Below, in pieces: positions 61,151 to 64,000 of a DNA stretch of 64,000 nt. Source of the stretch: a virus. Made by a program: the position numbers and the translations under genes. The stretch lies in the IMG/VR virus record IMGVR_UViG_3300025652_000032, positions 62,001 through 126,000 of that record, one strand, 5' to 3'. The notes beneath the pieces are model-generated. The model had not been told where the DNA came from, did not search any database, and saw only the letters and a program-made list of their open reading frames with translations. Position 1 is the first letter of the stretch, and every line of letters starts with the position of its first letter.

Positions 61151-61998
61151 GCGAAAATAGAAAAAATCGAAGATCGGAGATGTTCAAATCTATTGCAAAA
61201 GACCTTAGAGAAATAAGTTCTGCACTCAGATCCGAACCCGATGTTCCTGCACCAAAAAACAGAATGCTGTATGAGGCCGCAGAGTTCACTAGACCAAAGT
61301 CAGAAAAAGAAGTAGAAGAAAAAATAAATCAACGAGATCTAATCAAAGGAATTTCTAAATTAGACTACACTGATCTAAAACTGAACGTATTCGATGCGAT
61401 TAAAGAAGTTCGTGACGCTGTAAACGCACCAACCGATGGCGAAGCAGCATTGAAGTGGATGGAACTTGCAATCAGTCAATTATATGAGGATGCAGATCTA
61501 TCAGTGGAAGAGAGATTCCTTCGAGATGAAAAGCGTCTCATATCTACATCAGGTTTCAAGCGTCCCGGTGAGATGTTCATGTTCAACTACGAACCCAGAA
61601 CCAGATCAAAACTAGAATTCTATGATACTTTCCCTCTGATTTATTTGGTAAAGGTTGAACCGGGTAAGTTACATGGACTAAATCTGCACTATCTGCCACC
61701 CAAAATCAGGACTATATTTTTCATGAACCTACAACAACTCAGAACTGGTATCGGAACAGAAGCACGCCTGGGTAAACTTGATATTAGTATATTAAAGGCA
61801 TCGAATCGGTATAAATACTTTAGACCATGTTATAGAGTTTATTCTATGAAGAGAATCAACTCCAGAATGTTGAAGATACCAGCAGAGGATTGGCCAATTG
61901 CAATACAACTTCCTCTGGAGAGATTTAAGAAAACGTCGAAGTATAATGTTTGGACCGACAGTAGAAGAACAATCGCACAACGAAGAGGAGAAATCTGA
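61147..61998 (+). CDS. Conserved virion-type protein following gp4, 283 aa
   Basis: The start is a GTG at 61147 overlapping the gp4 stop. Residues 1-120 are charged and helical. From about residue 135 comes a well-conserved myovirus signature: MFMFNYEPRTRSKLEFYDTF, PLIYLVKVEPGKLHGLNLHY and LPPKIRTIFF, followed by SILKASNRYKYFRPCYRVY and a closing LERFKKTSKYNVWTDSRR. I recognise the family as widespread in T4-like and related phages but not its experimental role. Its size and place next to gp4 allow a comparison with T4 gp2 (DNA end protector), but the signature does not prove it. Confidence 0.72.
   Translation: MSENRKNRRSEMFKSIAKDLREISSALRSEPDVPAPKNRMLYEAAEFTRPKSEKEVEEKINQRDLIKGISKLDYTDLKLNVFDAIKEVRDAVNAPTDGEAALKWMELAISQLYEDADLSVEERFLRDEKRLISTSGFKRPGEMFMFNYEPRTRSKLEFYDTFPLIYLVKVEPGKLHGLNLHYLPPKIRTIFFMNLQQLRTGIGTEARLGKLDISILKASNRYKYFRPCYRVYSMKRINSRMLKIPAEDWPIAIQLPLERFKKTSKYNVWTDSRRTIAQRRGEI
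61810..61817 (+). promoter_or_regulatory. Possible late promoter TATAAATA inside the gene upstream of the tube-fold gene
   Basis: An exact plus-strand TATAAATA lies 180 bases before the gp54-like start. It falls on the codons of RYKYF, part of a conserved protein signature, so coding constraint alone could explain it. It is listed as a candidate only. Confidence 0.3.
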
Positions 61999-62891
61999 TG
62001 TCTGCTAGATCAGAAGCAAAACAATTAAACCACGCACTTCCTGTAAGTCCAATCGACTCCACCACTGGTTCTTCTTCGGAAGATGTTGTTATTGAGATGT
62101 TGAAAAGATCTGAAAAGGAAATGTCTAATCGGAATCAAATCAGCAAAAGTGCATTCAATCAATCAAAATCAATTCAGGATTTCTTCCAGAAAATAAACAG
62201 TACAGGATTATACTCACCATCAAGATATGATGTCTCCTTTGATAAACAAATCATAAGTAGAGAAGCACAAGATATGCTGACGTTCCAGTGTATCGACATA
62301 TCATTCCCCGGCAAAAACTTTAGAACAGCAGATGTTCGGACATATGGACCAGTAAGAAGACCTGTTATTGATGCAGAATTCAACGGTGAATTAACAATGA
62401 CGTTCCGGGTAAGTCGTGACTTTGCCGAGACAAAATATATCGATGAGTGGATGGATTTTATCTCTTCACCAAGGACTCGATATGATGTGCAATACTACGA
62501 TGACTACGTTTGCAACTTATACATTGATGCACTAGACAAGGGAATAGATGTAGACGCCGTTCCCGGTGTATCTACCTACAAATCAAGCAACGTGCTATAC
62601 AGATGCGAGGTTCGTGAGGTATATCCAAAATCAATGGACAGTATCCCACTCGGATTTGCAAAGGCAAATGAGATTGCCACGTTCAGTGTCACATTTGCAT
62701 ATCGAGATTGGATAATCATTCCAATTCCTGTTGGAAATAATGATGATCTACAAAACCAAGCAATACTAAGACAATTTGACAGACGACAGGTTGGAAGAGA
62801 ACAACCTAATGAAGCAGATATCGGGAGAGAAGTCGGTCCATTACGCGGCGTGGATTTCCAGATACCCGGTGGTGATTTCGGACTTGCATAA
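61998..62891 (+). CDS. Tail-tube-fold baseplate protein, gp54-like
   Basis: The 297-aa protein starts at a TGATG overlap. After a hydrophilic N-terminus it has a tail-tube-type domain: LYSPSRYDVSFDKQI, DMLTFQCIDISFPGKNFRTA, TYGPVRRPVIDAEFNGELTM, FIDEWMDF-type stretch (TKYIDEWMDFISSP) and a closing NEIATFSVTFAYRDWIIIPI. This is the pattern of gp19-like tube proteins and of gp54, the protein that starts tube polymerisation at the baseplate (T4 gp54, 320 aa). With gp19 and gp48 recognised elsewhere, gp54 is the best fit. The C-terminal tail is charged (QPNEADIGREVGPLRG). Confidence 0.72.
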   Translation: MSARSEAKQLNHALPVSPIDSTTGSSSEDVVIEMLKRSEKEMSNRNQISKSAFNQSKSIQDFFQKINSTGLYSPSRYDVSFDKQIISREAQDMLTFQCIDISFPGKNFRTADVRTYGPVRRPVIDAEFNGELTMTFRVSRDFAETKYIDEWMDFISSPRTRYDVQYYDDYVCNLYIDALDKGIDVDAVPGVSTYKSSNVLYRCEVREVYPKSMDSIPLGFAKANEIATFSVTFAYRDWIIIPIPVGNNDDLQNQAILRQFDRRQVGREQPNEADIGREVGPLRGVDFQIPGGDFGLA

Positions 62892-62911: not shown

Positions 62912-63616
62912 ATGCCATTACCAACAGTAGAGACACCCACATATAGTTTTACACTTCCAGATTCTAAAAGAAAGATCAATTACAGACCCTTTCGAGTAAA
63001 GGAAGAGAAAGTTTTGCTTCTTGCATCAGAATCTGGTGATGTGAATACGATTTACCAAGCAGTTCATGATATAGTTCTTTCTTGCACAGACGGAAAGTTG
63101 GATATTTTTAAATCAACGTCCATCGATTCTGAATATGCATTGATCAAACTACGAGCATCGTCTGTTGGTGAAACGATGAAACCAGAGTTGCAGTGTATTC
63201 ATTGCGAAAGCAGTTGTTCTGTTAACATAAAAACAGATGATCTCGTAATAGACGACAGCATGAAAAAAGATAATCGGATCAAAGTAAATAAATCAATAAT
63301 CATTGATCTTAAATTCCCTTCGTTTGCAGATGAACTGAGAAACAGCACCATGCAGGATCAGGTTGATATGGTATTTGATTCTGTTTGTTCTTCGATTGAT
63401 AAGATCTATTCGGATGATGAAGTTTTCGACGCAACAGACTATCAGAAAGAAGAAATTGAAGAGTTTGTTAACAACCTCGAAAGTGATACCTTTACACAAA
63501 TCCTAGAGTTCATCAAATCAAAACCAAGGGTGAAGATTCCAGTAAAATTTATATGTCCTAACTGCAAAAAGGAAAACGAATTTAAGATTGAAGGTGTAGA
63601 CGGTTTTTTCGTCTAA
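62912..63616 (+). CDS. gp26: Baseplate hub assembly protein gp26
   Basis: The 234-aa product fits the T4 base plate protein family of gp26 (T4: 208 aa): YSFTLPDSKRKINYRPFRVK, EEKVLLLASESGD and IDSEYALIKLRASSVGETMK are the hallmark. Cys95, Cys98 and Cys102 (CIHCESSC) with Cys215 and Cys218 (CPNC) suggest a zinc ribbon. AAAGGA lies upstream of the ATG. gp26 and its partner are now seen as assembly factors acting on the tape-measure and hub (family knowledge). Near its end the codons GGT TTT TTC GTC TAA form a T TTT TTC slippery site; a -1 shift would extend it into the next gene to about 293 aa. Confidence 0.92.
   Translation: MPLPTVETPTYSFTLPDSKRKINYRPFRVKEEKVLLLASESGDVNTIYQAVHDIVLSCTDGKLDIFKSTSIDSEYALIKLRASSVGETMKPELQCIHCESSCSVNIKTDDLVIDDSMKKDNRIKVNKSIIIDLKFPSFADELRNSTMQDQVDMVFDSVCSSIDKIYSDDEVFDATDYQKEEIEEFVNNLESDTFTQILEFIKSKPRVKIPVKFICPNCKKENEFKIEGVDGFFV
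63604..63610 (+). promoter_or_regulatory. Candidate programmed -1 frameshift site (T TTT TTC) at gp26 end
   Basis: The heptamer T TTT TTC is in the correct phase for a simultaneous -1 slip (codons TTT and TTC of gp26). The shifted frame reads CGT CTA ATG and continues without stop into the 58-aa gene. The site is two codons before the gp26 stop, and the partner start codon overlaps the stop (TAATG). A stem-loop lies 25 bases downstream. The arrangement parallels lambda G/GT. Confidence 0.6.
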
Positions 63617-63792
63617 TGCTCTGCCATGAATCACTTGAAAATTACTACAAAACTAATTTTCAATTAATGCATCACCATAAATACTCATTGGCAGAGTTAG
63701 AAAACATGTTTCCGTTTGAACGAGAGATTTACATACAACTACTTGTTGCTTTAATAAAGGAACAAGAGAAAGAACAAACAAGAGGATACTAG
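63616..63792 (+). CDS. Small gp26 partner protein with HHxYS motif, 58 aa
   Basis: The ATG at 63616 overlaps the gp26 stop. The product is MLCHESLENYYKTNFQLMHH followed by HKYSLAELENMFPFEREIYI and QLLVALIKEQEKEQTRGY. The pattern HH.YSL.ELE.M.P.ER.IY..LL...I.E is recurrent next to gp26 in T4-like and related myoviruses (family knowledge). Position and size recall the second tail-assembly chaperone of long-tailed phages, and possibly the T4 gp51 role. It can be made by coupled re-initiation, or as a C-terminal extension of gp26 through the frameshift site. The function is inferred. Confidence 0.82.
   Translation: MLCHESLENYYKTNFQLMHHHKYSLAELENMFPFEREIYIQLLVALIKEQEKEQTRGY
63635..63663 (+). other. 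Inverted repeat downstream of the slippery site
   Basis: TTGAAAATTA (63635-63644) pairs perfectly with TAATTTTCAA (63654-63663), giving a 10-bp stem with a 9-base loop, 25 bases after the T TTT TTC heptamer. It could stimulate frameshifting, although it is A/T-rich and further away than the usual 5-9 bases. Confidence 0.45.
63676..63683 (+). promoter_or_regulatory. Possible late promoter box CATAAATA inside the 58-aa gene
   Basis: Plus-strand CATAAATA, the same octamer as before gp18, lies 111 bases before the last gene. It falls on the codons for HHKYS, a conserved motif, so it may be chance. Confidence 0.25.
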
Positions 63793-63793
63793 A

Positions 63794-64000
63794 GTGGCCC
63801 AGGCAGCAACACTAAAAGACGTAGTAACACAACTAAAATCGATGCACAAGGATCAGAAGCAAAGTGCATCAATACGTCAAATGGTTAGACAGGAATCGAC
63901 GGCACAGAACGTAGGTAGTTCATATGCCACTGGTGTTCTTGCAGGCAGCATGTTGGGTCCCACCGCAACCAAAGTTGCAGATCGAACCAAAAAGATCGCT
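63794..64000 (+). CDS. 5' part of a following tail or hub gene (possible tape measure)
   Basis: A GTG start (63794) follows the previous stop by one base, with GAGGAT upstream, and the frame stays open for 69 codons to the window edge. The residues seen are (M)AQAATLKDVVTQLKSMHKD followed by QKQSASIRQMVRQESTAQNV and a Gly/Ala segment (YATGVLAGSMLGPTATKVAD). The charged helix followed by a small hydrophobic stretch would suit the start of a tape-measure or hub protein (gp29-like), and assembly-chaperone genes usually come directly before the tape measure. Too little is present to name it. Confidence 0.55.
   Translation, partial: MAQAATLKDVVTQLKSMHKDQKQSASIRQMVRQESTAQNVGSSYATGVLAGSMLGPTATKVADRTKKIA

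Follow-up and report, generated by a model that had tools for sequence, protein, structure and literature searches.

Ribosomes that translate gene 26 of this marine, T4-like phage very probably slip back by one base near its stop codon, and on the sequence evidence presented here we are highly confident that gp26 encodes a tail assembly chaperone and undergoes programmed −1 ribosomal frameshifting. The locus has the coding potential for a short form and a C-terminally extended long form. The frameshift signal, its conservation in phase, the −1 relation of the two reading frames, and the homology to both T4 gp26 and T4 gp51 were observed directly. The window, that is, the whole 64,000-nucleotide stretch of DNA that was analyzed, is located close to the end of a virus record 128 kb long, and its region gave no match to isolate phages by megablast. 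The features of the locus are as follows:

61998-62891, + strand: tail tube or gp54-like gene, upstream of gp26 (phrog_45 tail tube, E = 2e-34)
62912-63616, + strand: gp26 short form, 234 aa, T4_baseplate family (PF12322, phrog_150, predicted fold)
63589-63597, + strand: Shine-Dalgarno (SD)-like stretch GAAGGTG, a possible upstream stimulator, about 8-9 nt 5′ of the heptamer
63604-63610, + strand: slippery heptamer T_TTT_TTC, in phase, followed by one codon (GTC) and the gp26 stop
63610-63792, + strand: −1-frame extension (RL + 58 aa + stop), gp51-like C-terminal domain of the long form (phrog_634, −1 frame)
63614-63618, + strand: TAATG, the gp26 TAA and the ATG of the 58-aa open reading frame (ORF), with base 63616 common to both
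63618-63697, + strand: predicted mRNA stem, 63618-63629 with 63685-63697, enclosing the hairpin 63635-63644/63654-63663 (−20.2 kcal/mol)
63794-64000, + strand: start of the downstream gene, a candidate tape measure protein (626 aa in locus L003)

The gp26 protein matches PF12322 in Pfam (E = 3.8e-52) and phrog_150, baseplate hub, in PHROG (E = 9e-56), and the −1-frame part matches phrog_634, baseplate hub assembly catalyst (E = 1.9e-25). The genes on the + strand run in the order gp4-like head closure, gp2-like DNA end protector, gp54/tail-tube-like, gp26, small ORF, and large protein, and the annotations of P-SSM4, phiN3, and Vibrio phage CZ01 show a similar arrangement. In locus L003, whose gp26 is identical to that of the window, the gene 3′ of the chaperone locus encodes 626 aa with a long hydrophobic stretch (L003:4883-6763), and an ORF on the opposite strand follows it. 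The 626-aa protein has no PHROG match, and the syntenic phiN3 protein weakly matches tape-measure families; we treat the 626-aa protein as the candidate tape measure of this lineage.

The codons closing gp26 are GGT TTT TTC GTC TAA, and the −1 frame after the heptamer reads FF-RL-MLCHESLENYYKTN... and runs into the 58-aa ORF at 63616-63792, which gives a predicted fusion of 233 + 60 = 293 aa. A preliminary description of this DNA had pointed to T_TTT_TTC in the right phase just before the gp26 stop, to a −1 frame leading into the 58-aa protein with a fusion of about 293 aa, to the TAATG overlap, and to a 10-bp inverted repeat 25 bases 3′ of the heptamer, and the sequence bears out all of these. 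In a two-strand scan of open frames of at least 150 aa, T_TTT_TTN was found in phase at the gp26 site and in one antisense frame, with no others. TTTTTTC as such occurs 13 times on the two strands of the window (1-64000), compared with 21.4 expected from shuffles, as if slippery runs were avoided elsewhere.

We collected relatives from IMG/VR and from isolate genomes and located both domains by HMM. IMG/VR was queried with the gp26 of the window, of a Vibrio phage, and of a member of the Ackermannviridae, with T4 gp51, and with one alignment each of gp26 and the C domain; the best 80 loci of each of the two alignment scans were retained, so the sampling leans to nearer relatives. Among the matches listed, 226 loci have gp26 and the C domain in separate frames, and all 226 place the C domain in frame −1 relative to gp26; the gp26-like domain and the C domain share one ORF in 10 loci of the T4 branch, and no C domain was found in 6 loci, which comprise contig ends, T4 gp26 itself, a broken T4-type gene, and Vibrio phage D506. 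Representatives with less than 80% nucleotide identity to each other numbered 145, and among the matches listed an in-phase T_TTT_TTN is present in 142 of them, as TTTTTTC (125), TTTTTTT (10), or TTTTTTA (7), usually one codon from the stop, with no exception outside the Ackermannviridae.

The codon preceding the two Phe codons in these 142 representatives encodes Ser, Asp, Asn, Ala, Gly, Thr, His, or Phe. It ends in T in 142 of 142, where codon use within each gene would predict 85.4, and TTT serves as the first of the Phe codons, again in 142 of 142 (99.5 expected). The naive joint log10 p for the two fixed sites is −59.8, which overstates independence because the sequences are related, and the true value is less extreme. 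Conservation of the heptamer at synonymous sites in relatives had been suggested as a check, and its outcome is strongly in favor of a functional site. As all 226 loci have the C domain in the −1 frame and T_TTT_TTN is kept in 142 of 145 representatives, sequence comparison indicates that the arrangement of heptamer and −1 frame at the end of gp26 is not due to chance. The synonymous-site conservation supports the original proposal that a −1 frameshift cassette joins gp26 to its small partner.

The upstream SD-like stretch probably aids frameshifting. In the 12 nt before the heptamer, the anti-SD pairing energy has a mean of about −6 kcal/mol over the 142 representatives, compared with 0 to −3 kcal/mol for most of the surrounding sequence, and the pairing before the heptamer exceeds that of synonymous shuffles (Wilcoxon p = 3e-11). 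The key Glu codon is GAG in 64 of 96 cases versus 28 expected. At about 9 nt, the spacing is similar to the one at the Escherichia coli dnaX site. Downstream, the fold in the window (−20.2 kcal/mol, z −4.96) has an outer stem that begins 7 nt 3′ of the heptamer, where stimulators are usually placed, and the 10-bp inverted repeat at 63635-63644 and 63654-63663 is the inner hairpin of this larger predicted fold. In L005 and L006 the same fold is less strong (z −2.0 and −1.7, respectively). Pairing is kept in 96% of cells among the four clade sequences, and covariation is uninformative for the stem because there are only these four sequences and zero compensatory changes. In the clade of the window, the downstream stem may also help slippage.

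Stems of at least 7 bp starting 4-10 nt after the heptamer are found in 32% of the representatives (37% with the search window shifted by −30). Most of the control offsets gave about 18%, but +120 gave about 31%, and the stems are enriched about two-fold over most control offsets without being universal. A downstream stem as a family-wide signal was ruled out, since it is present in about a third of the representatives and at +120 in about 31% too. An Rfam search gave no match.

We infer slippage in vivo, its efficiency, and chaperone action along the following lines. Most ribosomes would terminate at the TAA and release the 234-aa short form, and a minority would shift by one base on T_TTT_TTC and add 60 codons to make the 293-aa long form. 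The shift would probably be stimulated by the upstream SD-like stretch and, in the clade of the window, perhaps by the stem 7 nt downstream. The short form would probably coat the tape measure or hub proteins, and the C-terminal domain of the long form would probably recruit the tail tube or a hub partner, as in lambda G/GT. Lambda G/GT likewise consists of a short form and a rare −1 fusion, encoded between the genes for the tail tube and the tape measure (here a candidate), and the order in the window, a tail-tube-like gene, gp26 with the small ORF, and the 626-aa protein, resembles lambda V - G/GT - H. The slippery sequence of lambda differs from that of the window, no sequence relation was detected between the two systems, and gp26 of the window, unlike lambda G/GT, is a member of the T4_baseplate family with Cys pairs. 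The AlphaFold models are confident (mean pLDDT of 89.9 for gp26 and 88.3 for T4-type gp51). Fold searches of the PDB with the gp26 model and the fused gp51 model gave no significant match; the highest-probability match of gp26 was the HK97 chaperone 2ob9, at a probability of only 0.25 (E = 1.7, TM about 0.2/0.4), and no relevant solved structure was found by sequence. By analogy, the gp26 pair would work like a lambda-type chaperone pair, and common descent with the lambda family is a separate matter.

The 58-aa ORF has its own ATG in the window, so re-initiation at the overlapping TAATG could make the 58-aa protein separately, with the T-run incidental, and gp51 is listed as a separate small gene in the public annotations of P-SSM4, phiN3, and CZ01. 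We consider such translational coupling very unlikely. The second ORF has no ATG before the conserved core in 77 of the 142 representatives and none of ATG, GTG, or TTG in 47 of the 142, and in every one of them the heptamer and the open −1 frame are still present. Furthermore, the one SD-like stretch present is about 20 nt 5′ of the ATG, too far for ordinary initiation, and the heptamer is fixed at synonymous sites.

The run of six T's in the window, and of seven in some relatives, could also invite slippage of the RNA polymerase, by which mRNAs with one base more or less would arise and the long form would come from altered transcripts. Polymerase slippage usually takes runs of about 8 or more, however, and the run here is short for it; in 125 of 145 representatives it is six T's followed by C, and the X_XXY_YYZ phase, which polymerase slippage does not need, is kept in all 142, so that we give this explanation hardly any credence. 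Homopolymers are prone to indels, and an ordinary broken or split gene or a sequencing error might leave a T-run, but the same arrangement recurs in 226 loci and in 145 divergent representatives, isolate genomes included. This conservation has already refuted such a reading, and we assign it practically no chance.

T4 gp26 (PF12322, E = 8.8e-64) is the short form; its gene lies on the strand opposite to that of gp51, and it ends ..RGLKEFFELL with TTC TTT, which is not slippery. T4 gp51 (249 aa) matches PF12322 over residues 1-201 (E = 3.9e-52), and, at the junction, its final ~50 residues can be aligned with the −1-frame domain (VFKLLVNPDEIFTFYQINH.. versus FFRLMLCHESLENYYKTNF..). A comparison of the gp51 C domain with the −1-frame part by hhalign gave 94% probability and an E value of 1.2e-7 at the same junction, and phrog_634 matches both. 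T4 gp26 thus matches the short form and T4 gp51, with its gp26-like residues 1-201 and C domain, the whole long form. The preliminary description was right that gp26 and gp51 are separate genes in T4 and mistaken in taking gp51 as the counterpart of the small partner: gp51 carries a gp26-like domain and the partner domain in one frame, and T4 therefore makes the two forms from paralogous genes. These are on opposite strands, and, unlike in the window, no slippery site ends gene 26. T4 gp51 has been reported to be required but absent from the particle (PMC3004832).

In the tree, the N-domains of T4-type gp26 and gp51 form one clade each, and the frameshifting genes are on one side of a branch. 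Because the branches leading to the T4 copies are long and the root is arbitrary, the tree makes descent of the T4 pair from a single duplication no more than plausible. At one locus (L064:3001-3746), a T4-type gp51 is interrupted: unlike its relatives, it has the gp26-like part in one frame and the C domain in another, owing to either a mutation or a sequencing error.

The three exceptions to T_TTT_TTN among the 145 representatives are Ackermannviridae, in which gp26 ends with (G/A)_ATT_TTC or G_GTT_TTC and the C domain again follows in the −1 frame. In T7 gene 10 (G_GUU_UUC), X_XX is G_GU (PMC5009743); the G_GTT_TTC and G_ATT_TTC of the Ackermannviridae resemble this partial site, whereas the window and the representatives outside the Ackermannviridae have the full T_TTT_TTN instead. 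By analogy, the partial sites would shift as well. Unannotated stretches after gp26 in PM10 and MAM1 (L047:3741-4248 and L055:3762-4266) hold the C domain in the −1 frame. Vibrio phage D506 has A_CTT_TTC and groups with the Ackermannviridae in the tree; its C-domain region was read by eye only, because the HMM missed it.

G-T frameshifting was described in 2016 as widely conserved in long-tailed phages "except T4" (PMC5009743). According to two later papers (PMC10885494 and PMC12846349), Vladimirov, Gautam & Davidson (2022, Virology 566:9-15) identified T4-like tail assembly chaperones; citing that study, the former describes T4-like phages with a short gene and a fused long gene, and the latter poly-T −1 signals in T4-like TAC-N genes. 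Judging by the title and the citing papers, these are the same genes as ours. The first ~200 residues are missing from gp51 of cyanophages and vibriophages, and Aeh1 is without gp51, as Sullivan et al. (2010) had pointed out (PMC3037559). Because of Vladimirov 2022, as represented in the citing papers, and Sullivan et al. 2010, the core finding is to be taken as already known for T4-like phages, and the window is a further instance, real and well supported. The "gp51" that is listed separately or missed in many T4-like phages is probably the −1-frame tail of gp26, which fits both remarks of Sullivan et al., on truncated cyanophage gp51 and on gp51-less Aeh1. Aeromonas phage Ah1 (L048:3714-3881) has no annotated gp51, and the domain is found in the −1 frame of gp26, with no ATG before the conserved core. 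An unannotated −1-frame domain of this kind may be the reason why Aeh1 was reported to be without gp51.

We lean slightly towards seeing three decoding solutions for one protein pair, namely, a composite signal of a dnaX-like SD element, T_TTT_TTN, and, in some clades, a stem; a T7-like site in Ackermannviridae; and duplication in the T4 branch. In the last of these, the T4 branch, a subset of Straboviridae, would have replaced the frameshift by gene duplication. Of the whole picture, the composite signal and the variant in Ackermannviridae most deserve to be followed up. T4 gp26 and gp51, long called hub catalysts of unclear function, become directly testable as a short/long chaperone pair. 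In Pfam, the −1-frame domain has weak matches only, e.g., to DUF6760; two members of the C-domain alignment (window positions 63604-63789) weakly match this family, with a best E value of 0.025, and the match might tie the C domain to other tail-like systems.
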